Positions 13,688 through 49,920 of a stretch of DNA of 64,000 nt are shown one piece after another. Origin of the DNA: Phaeocystidibacter luteus (lineage in GTDB: Bacteria > Bacteroidota > Bacteroidia > Flavobacteriales > Schleiferiaceae); the NCBI RefSeq assembly GCF_008933115.1, contig NZ_WBVO01000001.1, positions 62,001 through 126,000 of the forward strand, read 5' to 3'. Position 1 is the stretch's first letter. Every line of letters starts with the position of its first letter. The position numbers and the translations under genes are program-made. The notes under the pieces are model-generated. The model saw only the letters and a program-made list of their open reading frames with translations. It made no database searches and was not told the DNA's origin.

Positions 13688-14005
13688 CTAAGCGTTCGCC
13701 ACAAAGGCGAATGCATTTCTGGCAAGATCTTGCCAATCTTCTTGAAACTCTTCAGGCACCTGAATCCAATCCTTCATAGGACGGCCTTTGCCCGACGGAT
13801 CCCAATTGACCGAACCAGCGTATTTGTCCTTGAGCTGGTCCACTTCAACCTTGCCGAGTTTGAAAACCATTTCACCCTTGAAGAATGCGGCAAAAGCTTT
13901 GTTGCCTGGGGTTTTGAAACATGGTTTACCAAACATTTGTCCAGCTGTGGTGTCGAATTCATCGCTTAAAGCTCGACCAATATTTTGGAAATGGACTTCA
14001 CTCAT
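13688..14005 (-). CDS. TfoX N-terminal-like / YjbR-like small protein
   Basis: 105 aa, no signal peptide. The segment TAGQMFGKPCFKTPGNKAF resembles the MFG-x-x-C/F core of TfoX_N and YjbR-fold proteins, and the rest is a compact alpha/beta protein ending in an Ala/Phe-rich helix. It is too short and too diverged to be a competence regulator with confidence. The start overlaps the end of the preceding SRPBCC gene by 4 bp (ATGA), so the two are one leftward operon. Its biochemical role is unknown. Confidence 0.6.
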   Translation of the reverse strand: MSEVHFQNIGRALSDEFDTTAGQMFGKPCFKTPGNKAFAAFFKGEMVFKLGKVEVDQLKDKYAGSVNWDPSGKGRPMKDWIQVPEEFQEDWQDLARNAFAFVANA

Positions 14006-14520
14006 TTGTTTCCCATGTAGGTCTTTAGGTTCGCTAGCCCCTTCTCGAAGTCTTCGCGGACCGTCTTTTCAAATCCGCTCTTCATAAATCGTGCATAGAA
14101 TGGAAGTTCCCCTTCGATACTCCAGGTTACTTTAGAGCCGGTTTCGATCTTGTCAATCTGAACGTGACTATCGAGCGCATCCAATCCTTGAAGCGAAATC
14201 ATCAAATCGATTTCTGTGGGTTGGGATTTGGTGATTTCCATGCGTCCGCCTGGACCTTCCACCATCTTCCAATTCACCCAAGCACGCTCGCCTATAGATG
14301 GATCGGAAACGTGAATAGTAAGATTTGTGTCACGCGTGAGGTTCTGCGACCATTTTGTCCAGGTAGAGAGGTCGTTCATTTCAGCATAAATCTCATTTGG
14401 ACTTTGTGTGAACTCTAATTCTGCAGAAGTAGAAAATCCGCCTGTGAGAGTGAGATTCCAAATAAGGAATGAAATCATCATCGCCGAAGTGACGAGCATT
14501 ACGATTTTAAGCGTGCGCAT
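14002..14520 (-). CDS. SRPBCC (START-like) protein with N-terminal membrane anchor
   Basis: 172 aa. Residues 5-27 form one hydrophobic helix. The remainder has the SRPBCC/polyketide-cyclase-like pattern: an initial strand ending FTQSPNEIYAEMNDLSTWTKWS, an extended beta sheet, and a C-terminal helix that includes FEKTVREDFEKGLANLKTYM. Such proteins bind lipids or other hydrophobic ligands, and none can be assigned here. It heads a two-gene leftward unit with the small TfoX-like protein (4-bp overlap). ATG start at 14520. Confidence 0.75.
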   Translation of the reverse strand: MRTLKIVMLVTSAMMISFLIWNLTLTGGFSTSAELEFTQSPNEIYAEMNDLSTWTKWSQNLTRDTNLTIHVSDPSIGERAWVNWKMVEGPGGRMEITKSQPTEIDLMISLQGLDALDSHVQIDKIETGSKVTWSIEGELPFYARFMKSGFEKTVREDFEKGLANLKTYMGNK

Positions 14521-14649
14521 ATCTATAGTCTTGTGAGAGCAAAAGTAAGTGATTCAGGCTGAGATGACGAAGGAAACTAGCGGTTGAGATGTTCATTTCG
14601 GATTATTTTCTCTCTATCTTGGTGCTCCTTATTCAACTACAAATTTGCT

Positions 14650-16671
14650 ATGAATTTTAAATGGATACTCCCACTTGCAATGGCCAGTGCGCTAACGGCC
14701 TGCGATTCGGGATCAGAAACAAATACTGAAGATACCATGAGCAGTGAAGATAACTTTGAATACAAAGTTGAACGATTTGCCGATATCGCCATTCTTCGTT
14801 ACCAGGTAGAGGGTTTTGAGAAACTGACACCTAAGCAAAGAATGCTCGTGTACCACCTCAACGAGGCCGGTCTTTCTGGTAGAGACATCATTTACTCTAC
14901 AAATTATCGTCACAACCTCGCCATTCGCGGCGCCCTAGAGGCAATCATTCGCAATTACGAAGGTGATCGAAATTCTTCGCAGTGGGAGTCTTTCCACACC
15001 TATGCTAAGCGCGTGTGGTTTGCAAGCGGTATTCATCACCACTATTCGAACGCGAAATTCGAGCCTGGCTTTTCAAGAGAGTATCTCGATGAATTGCTAG
15101 CGGCCACAAATCAATCACTTTCGGAGGAAGCGCTCAAGGCTATCTTCGATCCGGAGTATGACAAGAAGAAAGTTTCCAAGGACCCTGGTTCTGACGTGCT
15201 ACTTGCTAGTGCGGTTAACTTTTATGATCCGGATATTACCGCTGCCGAAGCGAAAGCTTTCTATGCGGCTAAGGGTGAAACCATCGACTCGCTTCGTCCA
15301 ATTTCATTGGGCCTAAACAGTAAGCTTGTTCGCCTGCCTGATGGGAGTCTTGAAGAACAAGTATATCATGTTGGAGGATTGTATTCTGAAGCTATTGAGC
15401 AAGTTGCGCATCATTTGAGTGAAGCTGCTAAATATGCGGAGAATGAAGCTCAAGCCAAGGCACTGCGTCTATTAGTAGAGTATTACAAAACGGGTGACTT
15501 AGAAACTTGGGATGCGTATAACGTGGCTTGGGTAGAGGCAACCGAGGGCGACATTGATTACATCAATGGATTTGTAGAAGTATACAACGACCCATTGGGG
15601 ATGCGCGGCAGCTACGAAACCATCGTTCAAATTCGTGACTTCGAAGCATCTAAACGCATGGCGCGCGTGAGCGAAGAGGCGCAATGGTTCGAAGACAACT
15701 CACCGATCATGGATGAGCATAAGAAGAGCAATGTAGTAGGTATTACGTACAATATCGTGACGGTTGCTGGGGAGGCTGGAGACGCTTCGCCTTCAACGCC
15801 TATTGGCGTTAACCTTCCCAATGCAAACTGGATTCGTTCACAGCACGGGTCAAAATCTGTAAGCTTGGGTAACATTGAGCATGCGTACGAAAAGGCGAGC
15901 GGAACAGGCTTTGTCAACGAGTTCGCATTTAGTTCAGAAGAGCGCGAAAGAGCAATCAAATACGGAGACATCGCCGGTAAGCTTCACACTGCACTTCACG
16001 AAGTAATTGGCCACGCTAGTGGTCAGCTTAACCCTGGTGTTACCAAAGACAAACTCGAGAACTACGGTAGTACGATTGAAGAGGCGAGAGCCGACTTGGT
16101 GGCCTTGTATTATTTGATGGATGAGCATCTTATTGAAATGGGCTTGGTTGAGAGCCTAGAAGCAGGGAAGGCGGAGTATGACAACTACATCCGCAATGGC
16201 TTGATGATTCAACTACGTCGTTTGAACCCGGGTGAAGACATCGAGGAAGACCACATGAGAAACCGTCAGCTTGTTGCCTTGTGGGCGTATGAAATGGGTA
16301 AGGACGAAAACGTGATTGAGAAGAAGGTAGTCGATGGTAAAACCTATTTTGTAATCAACGATTACGCTAAGCTTCGTGAGCTGTTTGGGGCGCAACTTCG
16401 CGAGATTCAGCGAATCACCTCTGAAGGTGACTTTGCCGCAGCACAGGAATTGGTAGAGCAATACGGTGTGAAGGTTGACAGAGAGCTTCACGCTGAGGTT
16501 CTACGTCGTGCAGAAGCTTTGGACCAAGCTCCTTACAGTGGATTTGTGAATCCAATCCTAACTCCGGTTATGGAGAATGGTCAAATGGTTGATGTAGAAC
16601 TCAACTATGCGGACGATTTCACAGAGCAAATGCTTTACTACTCAGAGAAGTATGGCTTTTTGAGCAAATAG
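14650..16671 (+). CDS. Dipeptidyl-peptidase III (M49) lipoprotein
   Basis: 673 aa from the ATG at 14650. The frame is open back to a TTG at 14584, but only the later start gives a proper signal (MNFKWILPLAMASALTAC) with lipobox LTAC, so it is a lipoprotein. The M49 zinc motif HEVIGH (H450, E451, H455) and the second motif with E477-E478 (EEARAD) are both present. DPP III removes dipeptides from the N-terminus of oligopeptides. Bacteroidota forms are often envelope-located and feed peptide uptake. The gene is monocistronic and ends at a strong terminator. Confidence 0.9.
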   Translation: MNFKWILPLAMASALTACDSGSETNTEDTMSSEDNFEYKVERFADIAILRYQVEGFEKLTPKQRMLVYHLNEAGLSGRDIIYSTNYRHNLAIRGALEAIIRNYEGDRNSSQWESFHTYAKRVWFASGIHHHYSNAKFEPGFSREYLDELLAATNQSLSEEALKAIFDPEYDKKKVSKDPGSDVLLASAVNFYDPDITAAEAKAFYAAKGETIDSLRPISLGLNSKLVRLPDGSLEEQVYHVGGLYSEAIEQVAHHLSEAAKYAENEAQAKALRLLVEYYKTGDLETWDAYNVAWVEATEGDIDYINGFVEVYNDPLGMRGSYETIVQIRDFEASKRMARVSEEAQWFEDNSPIMDEHKKSNVVGITYNIVTVAGEAGDASPSTPIGVNLPNANWIRSQHGSKSVSLGNIEHAYEKASGTGFVNEFAFSSEERERAIKYGDIAGKLHTALHEVIGHASGQLNPGVTKDKLENYGSTIEEARADLVALYYLMDEHLIEMGLVESLEAGKAEYDNYIRNGLMIQLRRLNPGEDIEEDHMRNRQLVALWAYEMGKDENVIEKKVVDGKTYFVINDYAKLRELFGAQLREIQRITSEGDFAAAQELVEQYGVKVDRELHAEVLRRAEALDQAPYSGFVNPILTPVMENGQMVDVELNYADDFTEQMLYYSEKYGFLSK

Positions 16672-16695
16672 GCTATTGACTCAAATAACATTGAG

Positions 16696-16734
16696 AAACC
16701 CTGTACGCTGAGGTGTGCAGGGTTTTTTGTTTTT
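16696..16734 (+). terminator. Terminator of the DPP III gene
   Basis: Stem AACCCTGTAC / GTGCAGGGTT with an 8-nt loop, followed by TTTTTTGTTTTT. Confidence 0.85.
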
Positions 16735-16750
16735 GCAGCTGTGAGGTAGG

Positions 16751-17283
16751 GGAGGCCCAACTAACGGCACGTGCTAAAGCACTGTGCCTAGTACCCTCCC
16801 TTAAGTCCGCTTGTATCAGTATCACCTAAAGGTAGAATTCAAACAAAGCATCTTTCATCCAAAATGAACCTGCTAAAGCATGGTTCATTCTGCCGAAGCC
16901 AGTCCGTGAGTCCATGAGCGGGGAGGCCCGACCAACGGCACGTGCTAAAGCACCGTGCCTAGTGTCCTCCCTTCATTCCGTTCGAAACAAGATCACCTAA
17001 AGGTAGAATTCAAACAAAGCATCTTTCATCCAAAATGAACCAGCTAAAGCATGGTTCATTCTCCTGAAGCGAGTCCATGAGTCTATGAGCTGGAAGGCCC
17101 AACTAACGGCACGTGCTAAAGCACTGTGCCTAGTACCCTCGCTTCATTCCGTTCGAAACAAGATCACCTAAAAGCAGAATTCAATTGCAGCAAATTTCAT
17201 CCAAAATGAACCTGCTAAAGCATGGTTCATTCTCCCGAAGCCAGTCCATAAGTCCATAAGTCTATAAGTCCATGAGTCAATCT
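16751..17283. repeat. Three tandem ~171-bp units with CTAAAG-centred palindromes
   Basis: Units begin at 16751, 16922 and 17092 and are about 85-95% alike by eye. Each holds hairpin A (16766-16788, 16937-16959, 17108-17130; GGCACGTGCTAAAGCAC... type) and hairpin B (16863-16889, 17034-17060, 17205-17231; stem AATGAACC / GGTTCATT around TGCTAAAGCA). Units 1 and 2 also have a short ACCTAAAGGT palindrome (16824-16833, 16995-17004), which is broken in unit 3. Each unit ends in AGTCCATGAGTC-like microrepeats, expanded at 17243-17279. No ORF of substance is present on either strand. Looks like an amplified REP-like element. Confidence 0.85.
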
Positions 17284-17340
17284 CCTCTGCGAACTCTCTC
17301 CACCACGCCAACCTCATATTCTCTGCGAGAGAACTACCCC

Positions 17341-17378
17341 AAAAACAAAACCCCACACATTTCTCAATGCGCGGGGTT
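17341..17378 (-). terminator. Terminator for the leftward response-regulator transcript
   Basis: On the minus strand, AACCCCGCGCATT pairs with AATGTGTGGGGTT around a short loop and is followed by TTGTTTTT. It lies about 20 bp after the stop at 17401. Confidence 0.8.
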
Positions 17379-17400
17379 CTTTCTATCTAGGTTTCCTGAA

Positions 17401-17781
17401 CTATGATGCTTTTACCTGTACGAGTGATTGAAGGGCTCCTACAATTCCCAAAGGGGAGTCCATTTTACTGATGTAAGTCGAAGCGCCGGCAAGTTCGATT
17501 TCCGCGATGGATTTGTCTTCGTCCTTGTAGAGCGACGACAGTACAATAATCGGAGTACTTGGATTGGCTGAGACGTTTCGAATGTGTGAGATGACCTCCA
17601 TGCCGTTTTTGACAGGCATGTCGATGTCGGTAATGACCGCGTCAAACCCACCCTTATCGAACAAATCAATAGCCTCTTGACCATTGATTGCAGTCTCAAA
17701 GGTGTAGCCCTCTTTACTGAGAAGTATAGAGATTGCCTTTAGAAGAAAGACGTGATCATCTGCGATGAGAATGTGGCCCAT
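17401..17781 (-). CDS. Single-domain response regulator (CheY-like)
   Basis: 126 aa, a receiver domain alone. The acidic pocket is D8-D9, the phospho-acceptor is D52 in TDIDMP, a Ser of IVLSS takes the switch Thr/Ser position, and the conserved Lys is in YISKMDS. No output domain is attached, so it must signal through protein contacts, as CheY or Spo0F do. It lies 108 bp after a LytTR regulator and an HPt protein on the same strand. This fits a multistep phosphorelay, but no histidine kinase is adjacent. Confidence 0.9.
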   Translation of the reverse strand: MGHILIADDHVFLLKAISILLSKEGYTFETAINGQEAIDLFDKGGFDAVITDIDMPVKNGMEVISHIRNVSANPSTPIIVLSSLYKDEDKSIAEIELAGASTYISKMDSPLGIVGALQSLVQVKAS

Positions 17782-17889
17782 TAACGTATAATACTCGTAG
17801 TTTCATTAACGAATGTCTGAAACTTACAGGCACACCGTTACTTCATTTCGATGAACGGTAGGGATAATTCGATAAATGGGAAGCTAGGC

Positions 17890-18585
17890 CTATAGGAGGT
17901 TCAAGCGATCCATCAGACCTTGACGGTTCGAGCGGCTGATAGGAATGACCTTCTGATCGATTACTAAAGAATTGTCCTCGATATCTACCACCTTGCTCAA
18001 ATTCACAATGAACGATCTGTGAACCTTATAGAAGTCGTAGGTTGAGAGCTTCTCATCCACGGCGCGCATTGTGTTGTAGGTGATGAAGTTGCCAGAGTTG
18101 GTAACCACTTTCACGTAATCGCCCACATTTTCAATGAAGAGGATATCGGCAATCATGATCTTTACCAAACGGCCATCCGATTTTACAAAAATGTAATTCG
18201 GTTTTTCGCGCATTACCTTCGTTTCGGAGGCGCGCTTCATGGCTTTGGTTACACTCGCTTCGAACTTACCCGTGTTAATTGGCTTCTTCAGGAAGTCTGT
18301 AGCCTCAAACTGAAAGGCATCGAAAGCGTATTCCTTATTCGCAGTTGCGAAGATTACTTGCGGTAGTGCAGGGGAGTTTTCAAGCAGGTCCAGTCCACTT
18401 TCTCCTGGAAGTTCAACATCCAAGAAGATGAGATCGACATCATTAGACGTCATGAAATCTACGGCGTCCTCACTGTTTCCAAATGAGCCGATGAGCTCTA
18501 TTCGGTCATCTTTACTGCAAAGATGTTCGATGTTTCTTTGAGCGAGGGGATCATCCTCAACAATGATTGTTCGTAATGTACTCAC
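17890..18585 (-). CDS. LytTR-family response regulator
   Basis: 231 aa. The receiver domain (1-120) has D11-D12 and phospho-acceptor D56 in LDVELP. The C-terminal LytTR DNA-binding domain (about 135-231) shows IFVKSDGRLVKI, the FIENVGDYVKV core and YKVHRSFIVNLSKV, all typical. LytTR regulators bind direct repeats of about 9 bp and often control envelope or surface genes. A GTG start at 18585 overlaps the HPt stop by 4 bp, giving translational coupling to the HPt gene. Confidence 0.93.
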   Translation of the reverse strand: MSTLRTIIVEDDPLAQRNIEHLCSKDDRIELIGSFGNSEDAVDFMTSNDVDLIFLDVELPGESGLDLLENSPALPQVIFATANKEYAFDAFQFEATDFLKKPINTGKFEASVTKAMKRASETKVMREKPNYIFVKSDGRLVKIMIADILFIENVGDYVKVVTNSGNFITYNTMRAVDEKLSTYDFYKVHRSFIVNLSKVVDIEDNSLVIDQKVIPISRSNRQGLMDRLNLL

Positions 18586-18968
18586 TGGTTCAGGTGTTGC
18601 TTGAGCTGAGCGGTTTCTTCCTTTAGCAATATAAGAGTTTCTTGTATCTCTTCAATAATGCTTTCAATTTCTGGCTTGGCTTGATCAAAATTAATCAATC
18701 CAACTTTGATGTCGCGCTCAATCTTGGTGCAAAATTCAGACAATGGTGAATTGCCTACCATCACAAAATTCGGTTTGATTTTGTGAAGTACTCTTCTGCA
18801 ACCTTCTAAGTCACCTTTTGACAATGCCTCTTGCAACGTGCTGATTTCGAGTGGGATTTGTTCATTGAACAATTCGAACATGCTCAAAGCATAGCCCAAA
18901 TCTCCCTCGTAGAAATCTTCTAATACGCTACTATCAAGTGCCGTCTTAAATGAATATTCTTTCTCCAT
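18582..18968 (-). CDS. HPt (histidine phosphotransfer) domain protein
   Basis: 128 aa, all-helical. It carries the HPt motif HKIKPNFVMVG with the phosphorylatable H62 and the following Lys and Gly in register. HPt proteins shuttle phosphate between receiver domains in His-Asp-His-Asp relays. It is the first gene of the leftward set HPt, LytTR regulator, receiver. An 18-bp dyad (TGTAGG-N6-CCTACA, 19007-19024) lies about 40-55 bp upstream of its start. Confidence 0.85.
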   Translation of the reverse strand: MEKEYSFKTALDSSVLEDFYEGDLGYALSMFELFNEQIPLEISTLQEALSKGDLEGCRRVLHKIKPNFVMVGNSPLSEFCTKIERDIKVGLINFDQAKPEIESIIEEIQETLILLKEETAQLKQHLNQ

Positions 18969-19042
18969 GCGCTGGTCGATGCCACGAATATAGGCCTTTC
19001 ATAACTTGTAGGAAATACCCTACATATTAAATATCCTTCACA

Positions 19043-19074
19043 TTGACACTTGTCCTTTTCAGACCCTAAATTTG
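19043..19074 (+). promoter_or_regulatory. Promoter of the TerC gene
   Basis: TTG at 19043-19045 and TAAATTTG at 19067-19074 (exact TAnnTTTG) are separated by 21 bp, a good Bacteroidota -33/-7 pair. The ATG follows 17 nt after the -7 box. Confidence 0.65.
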
Positions 19075-19091
19075 ACCAAAATCTCTGAACT

Positions 19092-19862
19092 ATGTTTGAT
19101 CCTGAAGCTCTTTTTACACTCGACGCTCTCATTGCCTTTTTAACTCTCGCTTTTTTAGAGGTGGTTTTGGGAATCGATAACATCATCTTCATTTCCATTC
19201 TTTCCAACAAACTTCCCAAAGAGCAACGAGGAAGAGCGCGTACATTGGGTATCATTTTAGCTCTCGTTTTCCGCATCGCTATGTTGCTAGGTATTACGTG
19301 GATTGTTAAACTCACTGATCCACTTTGGGAAGCTGGTCCGATGTTTATCAATGAAATAAGTGGACGAGACCTCGTGCTTATTATTGGTGGCCTTTTCCTA
19401 CTGGCCAAAAGCACCAGGGAGATACATAAGAAGGTTCGAACCGAAGAGCAGCATGAGCCAGGTCAAGTTGAAAAGACTGAAAAGCTGAGCCTTAGCAGTG
19501 TCATTATTCAAATCGCCATCCTAGATGTTGTCTTTAGTTTCGACTCAATTCTGACCGCAATAGGGATGACCCAGCAAATAGCAATTATGATTGCTGCCAT
19601 CGTCGTGTCACTTGTGATTATGCTCGTTTTCGCGAAGAGAATTGCGAATTTCATTGAGAAGCATGTATCACTTCAGATTCTCGCGCTTAGTTTCCTAATC
19701 TTAATTGGAACTCTCTTGGTAACTGAAGGATTCGGCATGGAAGTCCCGAAAGGATACATCTACTTCGCCGTAGCTTACTCATTGGGAGTGGAGTTGTTGA
19801 ACATGCGAGCCGATAAGAAGAAGGCGAAAAAAGCAGCGCTGAATCAAGAGGGAAACGCTTAA
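19092..19862 (+). CDS. TerC family integral membrane protein
   Basis: 256 aa with about seven transmembrane helices. The TerC signature FLEVVLGIDNIIFISIL is at about 20-36 and the second-half counterpart is DVVFSFDSILTAIGM. The paired acidic residues in these helices are the proposed metal-binding site. TerC proteins (Alx, YgdQ, MeeF/MeeY types) are linked to manganese export and metalation of exoenzymes, and some to tellurite resistance. This one is single, with no Ter operon around it. It has a clear promoter and overlaps a convergent gene by 4 bp. Confidence 0.92.
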   Translation: MFDPEALFTLDALIAFLTLAFLEVVLGIDNIIFISILSNKLPKEQRGRARTLGIILALVFRIAMLLGITWIVKLTDPLWEAGPMFINEISGRDLVLIIGGLFLLAKSTREIHKKVRTEEQHEPGQVEKTEKLSLSSVIIQIAILDVVFSFDSILTAIGMTQQIAIMIAAIVVSLVIMLVFAKRIANFIEKHVSLQILALSFLILIGTLLVTEGFGMEVPKGYIYFAVAYSLGVELLNMRADKKKAKKAALNQEGNA

Positions 19863-20416
19863 TCTAGGAAACGAACAAGCGTGAAGTAGTCAGTGAGAAC
19901 GGCCTTTACAGCCTTTACCTCATCCTCGCTCACTTCCAACATTTCTCGACTTTCGTTTAAAATTGAATACGATGCGGTGGTGTCCAAATGCTGATACCAC
20001 CGCATTGCCGTTTCTATGTATGCATCTCTGTCCATTGAACCCTTGTCAATCTTTAGGGTGTCAGCACCGAGCACGAGATACCGGGTTGTGGTGGTGTCTG
20101 TGCCCATCGGACGAAGCATCAGAATGGCTTCATCTCGTTTCCAAAGGGTAATGATTTCTGGACGTAGTCCCGAAGCGATATCCACATCCCATTTCTTGTA
20201 GTCATAACGAACGATTCCTTGTTCAGGTTCTTCTGTTCGGTAGTACCAAAACGAGCGGATATTGTTGAAATGTAATCGACTGTCGGATGTCGTTTCAAAA
20301 CTAAATTCCTCCAGTGATTTGAGTTTTGGCTGATGTGGGAACATGAAGGAAATGGCTAAAAGTATTAGCACAAAAGCCAGTACACCTTTTAAAAGTTTGC
20401 CCTCATTCATATTCAT
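19859..20416 (-). CDS. Membrane-anchored protein of unknown function
   Basis: 185 aa, not recognised. One N-terminal hydrophobic segment (about 9-26) acts as anchor or signal. It is followed by a soluble domain of mixed strands with a Thr run in GTDTTTTRYL and a helical C-terminus. The frame can be read from a TTG at 20419, but ATG at 20416 or 20410 is more likely. It is convergent with TerC (stops overlap) and divergent from the carotene desaturase, 48 bp away. No functional prediction. Confidence 0.6.
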   Translation of the reverse strand: MNMNEGKLLKGVLAFVLILLAISFMFPHQPKLKSLEEFSFETTSDSRLHFNNIRSFWYYRTEEPEQGIVRYDYKKWDVDIASGLRPEIITLWKRDEAILMLRPMGTDTTTTRYLVLGADTLKIDKGSMDRDAYIETAMRWYQHLDTTASYSILNESREMLEVSEDEVKAVKAVLTDYFTLVRFLD

Positions 20417-49439: not shown

Positions 49440-49536
49440 GACCGAAGGGAGGAATCCCGAGAAGCGGAGCTGATTCGGGAGAGGGTTAGAGGGTTAGAGG
49501 GTTAGAGTGTTAGAGGGGTGGAGGGTTGGAGGGTCA
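49440..49536. repeat. REP-like inverted repeat followed by (GAGGGTTA)n tract
   Basis: 49441-49480 has GACCGAAGGGAG and AATCCCGA / TCGGGA arms, resembling the elements at 41426-41535. 49483-49533 carries at least five GGG runs with 4-13-nt spacers in a GAGGGTTA-type repeat, a potential G-quadruplex on the plus strand. Noncoding. Confidence 0.7.
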
Positions 49537-49920
49537 GACATGCAATACATAAGGCTTCGGAAAATCTTCAATTGGCACGTGGCTTCAGTTTGTGCATCCA
49601 GGGTTAGATTGTTGGACATGTAATACATAAGGCTTCGGAAAATCTTCGATTGGCACGTGGCTTCGGTTTGTGCATCTAGGGTTTAGAGGGTTAGACATGC
49701 AATACATAAGGCTTCGGAAGATCTTCGATTGGCACGTGGCTTCAGCCCGTGCATCTAGGTTTAGAGGGTCAGACATGCAATACATAAGGCTTCGGAAAAT
49801 CTTCAATTGGCACGTGGCTTCAGCCCGTGCGTATAGGGTTAGATTGTTGTGCATGTAAAACATAGGCTTTCCGAAAATCCTTCAATTGGCACTGGGCTTC
49901 AGCCCGTGCAACTTTAGTCA
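49537..49920. repeat. Five tandem ~78-bp units with a GGCACGTGGC hairpin
   Basis: Units start at 49537, 49615, 49694, 49772 and about 49850. Each has GACATGCAATACATAAGGC, then CTTCGG(A)AAATCTTC, then a hairpin of the type GGCACGTGGCTTCAGCCCGTGC. In units 3-5 the right arm is AGCCCGTGC. In units 1 and 2 it is degenerate (AGTTTGTGC, GGTTTGTGC). The last unit has the better-paired GCACTGGGCTTCAGCCCGTGC. The unit length is 26 codons, which creates a spurious minus-strand frame. Noncoding REP-like array. Confidence 0.85.

Follow-up and report, generated by a model that had tools for sequence, protein, structure and literature searches.

The locus lies in a 64,000-nt stretch of the Phaeocystidibacter luteus genome (contig NZ_WBVO01000001.1, positions 62,001 to 126,000), here called the window, in whose numbering coordinates are given unless another contig is named. 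An M49-family peptidase gene (14584-16671, + strand) and a response regulator receiver gene (17401-17781, − strand) converge on an intergenic region of 729 nt. Both genes are syntenic in two congeners, G001 and G002, in which the pair is separated by 79 nt and 73 nt, respectively. Terminator-like sites, identified by consensus match only, follow the peptidase gene (16692-16729, + strand) and the response regulator gene (17347-17380, − strand). Between these sites, and including neither, is an array of three tandem 171-bp units (16749-17261, + strand) delimited by repeat comparison and by TRF (score 801, 0% indels). The units occupy 16749-16919, 16920-17090 and 17091-17261, and the second and third are 89% and 86% identical to the first. 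The intergenic stretches of G001 and G002, compared by eye, lack the array. Judged from these sequence comparisons, the array is a putative REP/BIME-like insertion whose site is empty in both congeners examined.

Each unit contains two hairpins, identified by hairpin scan and DNA folding, that point in the same direction with a start-to-start spacing of 97 bp. Hairpin 1 (16766-16788, 16937-16959 and 17108-17130 in units 1 to 3, + strand) has the form GGCAC-GTGC-TAAA-GCAC-[T/C]-GTGCC, with GGCAC as lower stem, an unpaired base on the 3′ side (T in unit 1) and the apex GTGC-TAAA-GCAC. In unit 1 the 5′ foot on the opposite strand is CTAG, the G being the first stem base, and the foot is CTAG in all three copies. 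Hairpin 2 (16863-16889, 17034-17060 and 17205-17231, + strand) has the form AATGAACC-TGC-TAAA-GCA-T-GGTTCATT, with an unpaired T on the 3′ side and, in unit 2, AGC in place of TGC. All six hairpins are built alike, with a lower stem that varies, a single base left unpaired on the 3′ side, a short upper stem and a constant GC-TAAA-GC tip. DNA folding gives them energies of −8.1 to −8.5 kcal/mol (z −3.3 to −5.7), and for each of them none of 200 shuffles was as stable. A preliminary description of this DNA had reported a triplicate 171-bp unit with two longer hairpins and, in two of the units, a short third one; the tandem unit and the longer hairpins are confirmed, and the short one is rejected. 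In units 1 and 2 the latter (ACCTAAAGGT) folds at −0.4 kcal/mol (z about +0.3), with 96 and 99 of 200 shuffles equally stable, and it is absent from unit 3, which gives no fold there.

Between units the hairpins vary less than the spacers do, with 48 of 50 hairpin columns identical across the three units compared with 90 of 121 spacer columns (Fisher p 0.0006). Across the window the core GCTNAAGC is found 21 times where 7.5 would be expected, a count that none of 100 shuffles reaches; the 171-bp array accounts for six of these occurrences, and another array, at 49.7-49.9 kb, for three. The second array holds three hairpins of the same design with a TGAA loop (GCACG-GGC-TGAA-GCC-A-CGTGC type; 49732-49909, − strand) within a tandem array at 49522-49910, and over 49480-49910 a run of 8-bp repeats (AGAGGGTT) gives way to a 78-bp tandem repeat bearing these hairpins. 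A separate 8-bp tandem repeat (AGTCCATA; 17243-17278, + strand, TRF) marks the end of the 171-bp array, and elsewhere in the genome, arrays read by eye show similar AGTCNNNN runs after hairpin 2. Directly after the array, at 17284-17335, comes a CTCTGCGAACTCTC...CTCTGCGAG stretch that by eye recurs in similar form at other array ends (L034, L035 and L037), as if it belonged to a composite element.

With one unit as blastn query, the P. luteus genome (3.21 Mb, 27 contigs) gave 39 places at E ≤ 10 on many contigs, the weakest of them chance-like. Using a covariance model built from 11 hairpin types of this genome, we identified at least 148 matches at E ≤ 1 and at least 142 at E ≤ 0.01, both lower bounds because the search scored 150 of 1472 first-look candidates. 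Hairpin 1 of unit 2 is one of 16 identical best matches, two of which, letter for letter the same, adjoin a Y1 transposase gene on contig C11. Hairpins in the arrays are mostly 21-31 nt long, and 82 of the 84 core-bearing hairpins in the window and in the fetched stretches lie outside ORFs of at least 150 aa. Several contigs begin or end in or near a hairpin (e.g. C1:11-33, C2:19-41, C7:52-74, C23:197004-197026, C26:162372-162394); it is therefore likely that assembly was interrupted at the arrays and that the copy count is too low.

Selection of the 11 model types required the core GCTNAAGC and four or more of the five outer pairs; it therefore accounts for the constancy of the core and for some of the pairing, and favours the pairing result. 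Across the 11 types, 94.3% of stem cells are paired, with changes on both sides at six of eight pairs. Stem covariation is 0.577 compared with 0.134 in shuffled stems (0/500 as high), 17 cells are changed on both sides compared with 4.1 in shuffles, and slid structures pair only 23-33%. The same model found no match at E ≤ 0.01 among the 150 candidates scored in each of G001 and G002. In ten other genomes a single stem pattern yielded 0 to 12 copies each, 34 of the 48 inside the fetched Y1 gene locus; high copy number is thus not general, and the total of at least 142 looks special to this lineage. Set against the absence of matches in the two congeners, it looks like a lineage-specific burst.

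Three genes in the genome match the Y1_Tnp family (PF01797) at E ≤ 0.001, on contigs C1, C11 and C23. The C1 and C11 genes each lie inside an array of hairpins of the window's design, and the window array itself has no Y1 gene. The C1 gene (135 aa) is surrounded by 14 hairpins of the GGCATG and GGTCA types, and the C11 gene (143 aa) by 11 of the GGCAC and CTACCTCC types. In both surroundings the hairpins alternate in direction, in contrast to the two hairpins of the window unit. The stem type of hairpin 2 does not occur in the arrays directly around the three Y1 genes, its nearest known copy being about 3 kb off (C11:9885). The C23 gene (C23:163193-163642) is accompanied by other palindromes (CCCGGGGTTTGAAACCCCGGG, TGA loop) and by GGCCCCGCTGGGGCC-type repeats, a further REP-like set within this genome.

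The C11 protein is 40% identical to the C1 protein and 32% to the C23 protein. All three score 76-84 bits with the IS200 model NF033573 (cut-off 55), and the C11 protein matches transposases of known structure, including ISHp608 TnpA (best E 1.5e-8). With REP_Tyr_transpos NF047646 (cut-off 80 bits), two of the proteins score 33.1 and 30 bits and the third has no match at E ≤ 0.001. The motifs read EHVH, WQ and YVKNQRNHH in C1, DHIH, WQ and YVRDQWCKH in C11 (K replacing the first of two H), and NHVH, WQ and YIENQVKHH in C23. The NF047646 scores below cut-off, together with a Y---Q rather than a Y---NP motif, rule out canonical RAYT/TnpA_REP identity. By sequence, the three proteins resemble IS200-like TnpA_Y1 enzymes of subclass 1.2. 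No TnpB match was found among the six neighbours of the Y1 genes tested, one of which has no match of any kind. At E ≤ 1e-6, the C11 gene has no relative in G001 and one with an internal stop in G002, a state in keeping, for these two genomes, with the absent hairpins there.

The preliminary description had judged the design to fit a REP/BIME-type element spread by a RAYT-like transposase, with structured RNA as an alternative and with local duplication as the likelier course if the units occurred only here and were not transcribed. The genome-wide copies and the Y1 genes, two of three inside arrays of the same design, bear out a REP-like array with a Y1 link, and the canonical RAYT gives way to IS200-like enzymes. 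Local duplication, in which slippage would have multiplied an old palindromic intergenic stretch without a transposase and the hairpins would merely be slippage-prone, is improbable. The exact-length tandem units without indels could be three copies made from one, and the 8-bp tail is also slippage-like. Slippage could account for the tandem number but not for the dispersal; with same-design hairpins on many contigs and flanking Y1 genes, and with the site empty in two congeners, the dispersed copies largely refute it. We consider it very unlikely that the hairpins make up a structured RNA, an mRNA-stabilising element or a terminator, with transposition as past history: the array does lie between convergent genes and adjoins their terminator-like sites, and such host functions have been hypothesised for REPs (discussed in PMC3733652), but both neighbour genes are followed by a terminator-like site of their own beyond the array, the Rfam 15 covariance models gave no match at E ≤ 0.1 in 14000-20000, and neither congener has a model hairpin among its 150 scored candidates. 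The hairpins may nevertheless play such a part secondarily.

To survey hairpins beside related Y1 genes, relatives were found with six subclass 1.2-like proteins, five of which had previously been seen with TNAA hairpins; the C1, C11 and C23 proteins are only 31, 26 and 33% identical to one of the six. The best 80 of 434 relatives were kept, of which 78 were readable (L136 and L146, without motif, were dropped). At 45 of the 78 loci, two or more related hairpins with a TNAA/TTNA loop lie within 700 bp of the gene, on both sides in 29, and such hairpins are missing at 33. Repeated TNAA/TTNA hairpins were found at none of the 78 loci at a distance of 1200-1900 bp, and in none of five shuffles per locus. 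Among repeated near hairpins with 4-nt loops, the only loop length scanned, 151 of 153 have a TNAA/TTNA loop. When hairpins with 4-nt loops are counted singly, the TNAA type makes up 206 of 234 in the near windows, compared with 4 of 36 in the far windows, 7 of 33 at control loci and none of 14 in the rest of the P. luteus window once its two arrays are set aside.

Less selected samples show a weaker association and agree with this one. In a sample drawn with the IS200 family model, TNAA hairpins occur at 5 of 9 Y...Q..[HQR]H (Q..HH-type) genes and in none of the far windows, and the controls have none (0/7 Y[SGA]xSQ, 0/2 NP and 0/2 IS200-like genes). For 5/9 compared with 0/11, Fisher p is 0.008; this test excludes L105 (the C11 gene itself, with hairpins), L110 and L125, whose motifs are of other types; many relative loci are related, e.g. 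the Flavobacterium cluster, and the p-values treat them as independent, which is untrue. L110 has TGAA hairpins in a looser scan and none under the stricter rule. Rows without motif (L046, L047, L053, L059, L073, L086, L104, L108, L111, L128) and rows with identical proteins (L075, L107, L109, L115) were dropped from these samples; adding L107 (with hairpins) and L109 and L115 (without) changes 5/9 to 6/12. Among loci sampled for their likeness to the C1 gene, TNAA hairpins are present at 9 of 25 loci, and also at L080, and absent at 16; one far window is positive, that of L079, whose array continues. Near relatives of the C11 gene have them at 4 of 15 loci, with the C1 gene of the same genome included, and lack them at 11. 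The looser scans also admit 3- and 5-nt loops, and loci were read on both strands.

Repeated hairpins with other loops (TGC, GCC, GTT, TAGC) flank some Q..HH Y1 genes (L095, L050, L054, L120); which loop accompanies a gene may depend on its branch in the enzyme tree. In the P. luteus genome the hairpins typically carry the unpaired base; elsewhere perfect palindromes predominate. At L143, L171 and L173 a perfect double-foot palindrome, e.g. CATAGCCCACGG-TTTAAA-CCGTGGGCTATG, stands on each side of the gene and could equally be read as the ends of a small IS-like unit. A plasmid search for cyanobacterial members returned 15 records; the sole cyanobacterial match adjoins a TnpB gene and is annotated IS200/IS605, and a Bernardetia plasmid was also matched.

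We see little chance that the array consists of remnants of an ordinary IS200/IS605 insertion sequence, its hairpin ends without the transposase gene. The Y1 proteins do pass the IS200 model, the ends of IS200/IS605 elements are hairpins (as described in PMC6006769), and at some relatives the gene stands between two perfect palindromes, one per side, as it might in an IS. However, the ratio of hairpins to genes is at least 142 to 3, the three Y1 genes are divergent rather than copies of one another, the six neighbours gave no TnpB match, and the arrays have multiple units and multiple stems.

The foot of the hairpins was read on the TTNA strand. At the named relatives, the four bases before the 8-bp stem are ATAG in 28 of 78 (hairpins with a non-TTAA loop), and by position A occurs in 55, T in 67, A in 52 and G in 51 of the 78. 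Taking three flanking bases plus the first stem base, the GGCA-type hairpins of the P. luteus genome (n = 42) have ATAG (12), CTAG (8), CCAG (7), GTAG (5) and others (10). The 5′ foot by which REPs were recognised in the method of Quentin et al. 2018 is the tetranucleotide GT[AG]G (PMC6006769); the foot found here is related but different. By analogy with work on IS608 and RAYTs (PMC6006769, PMC8266576), an NTAG-like foot may guide cutting by pairing with the cut site.

In a tree of 142 core sequences, the TNAA label (65 rows) takes 28 changes, compared with 47.3 when shuffled (0/500 as low), and thus tends to follow descent. The tree, which contains no reference sequences of subclass 1.2, joins the C1 and C11 genes (support 92/89), with the C11 gene and the outgroups on long branches. 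A branch of 32 rows that includes the C23 gene has no TNAA hairpins (support 89/78), and the Y[SGA]xSQ controls fall inside it, so they are not an independent outgroup. The association of TNAA hairpins with these genes extends across the Bacteroidota, and the label also occurs in one record labelled Balneolota and in one labelled Calditrichota.

Taken as a whole, we consider it probable, with good confidence, that the window array is a BIME-like cluster of REP-type hairpin elements on which Y1 (HuH) nucleases act in trans. The elements would be non-autonomous and hairpin-forming in single-stranded DNA. A small HuH/tyrosine (Y1) nuclease encoded elsewhere in the genome would recognise the constant GC-TNAA-GC tip and the adjoining unpaired base, and perhaps also read the short NTAG foot. 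Acting on DNA in its single-stranded state, e.g. on the lagging-strand template, it would cut one strand, and the cut hairpin DNA would be rejoined elsewhere or copied in tandem by the enzyme. The lower stem could then vary as long as it pairs, so that several stem types coexist, as they do in the window array. We infer that the Y1 proteins bind, cut and move the hairpins, reading them at the tip. With the tip as the recognised feature, the stems would be free to diverge, so that one enzyme could mobilise several hairpin families at once, such as the two in the window unit. We regard as evenly balanced the proposition that a separate REP superfamily, marked by its TNAA tip and by an NTAG in place of a GTAG foot, belongs to IS200-like Y1 proteins of the subclass 1.2 type.

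The TNAA tip and NTAG-like foot offer a concrete candidate substrate for an enzyme group that was listed in 2018 as having no REPs (PMC6006769), a candidate present in many Bacteroidota and in the single examples labelled Balneolota and Calditrichota. If this is correct, the group listed as REP-less would become, among REP systems, the one closest to an IS, and might connect IS200 elements with domesticated RAYTs. It would open the question of how a self-moving transposase becomes a spreader of short repeats. In our searches of the open-access literature we found no paper linking enzymes of the subclass 1.2 type to such hairpins; the RepRanger paper (PMC12306157) gives counts for Flavobacterium, and its main text does not contain the words transposase, IS200 or RAYT.

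Compared with known systems, the hairpins are like REPs in general in being short extragenic palindromes with many similar copies in one genome, and like a REPtron in their linkage to cognate HuH/Y1 genes, seen at the two of three Y1 genes that lie inside arrays and not at the window array. With the REP/BIME elements of TnpA_REP (RAYT), as in E. coli group 2 (subclass 2.2 of Quentin et al.), they share extragenic position, irregular stems, mixed clusters, dispersal and a HuH/Y1 link. In E. coli REPs a bulge in the stem is required for cutting (PMC8266576). Unlike the REPs of the E. coli RAYT, the hairpins here have a mostly NTAG foot (GTAG in only 5 of 42; CTAG in the window) and a fixed GC-TNAA-GC tip, and the enzymes are IS200-like with Y...Q, not Y...NP. 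The CGTC-tagged repeats described in PMC3733652 are similar in their 8-9 bp stems, 4-5 nt loops and presence in Bacteroidetes among other phyla, but they carry a CGTC tag and an A-T stem start, whereas here most hairpins start with G-C and the foot is NTAG-like; these differences in foot and stem start rule out membership of that family.

The likeness to IS200/IS605 (TnpA_IS200, subclass 1.1) lies in the family-level protein match and in hairpin substrates of similar size. Unlike those elements, with one left and one right hairpin, near-identical copies and often tnpB, the three divergent genes here include no near-identical tnpA copies, have no TnpB match among the six neighbours tested and are associated with arrays rather than single end hairpins. 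Subclass 1.2 is defined by DH[IV]H, WQ and Y---Q--HH and occurs mostly in Cyanobacteria and Bacteroidetes (Quentin et al. 2018, PMC6006769). In that survey it is described as IS200-related, yet without IS properties or REPs; Table 1 enters REP as 'no', and the text states that its members are generally without typical IS200 terminal structures. The proteins described here are like this subclass in their HuH, WQ and Y---Q--HH motifs, with small departures in each, and in being small, of low copy number and from Bacteroidota. Unlike the subclass as published, they have repeated TNAA hairpins flanking their genes, both in this genome and at 45 of the 78 relatives.
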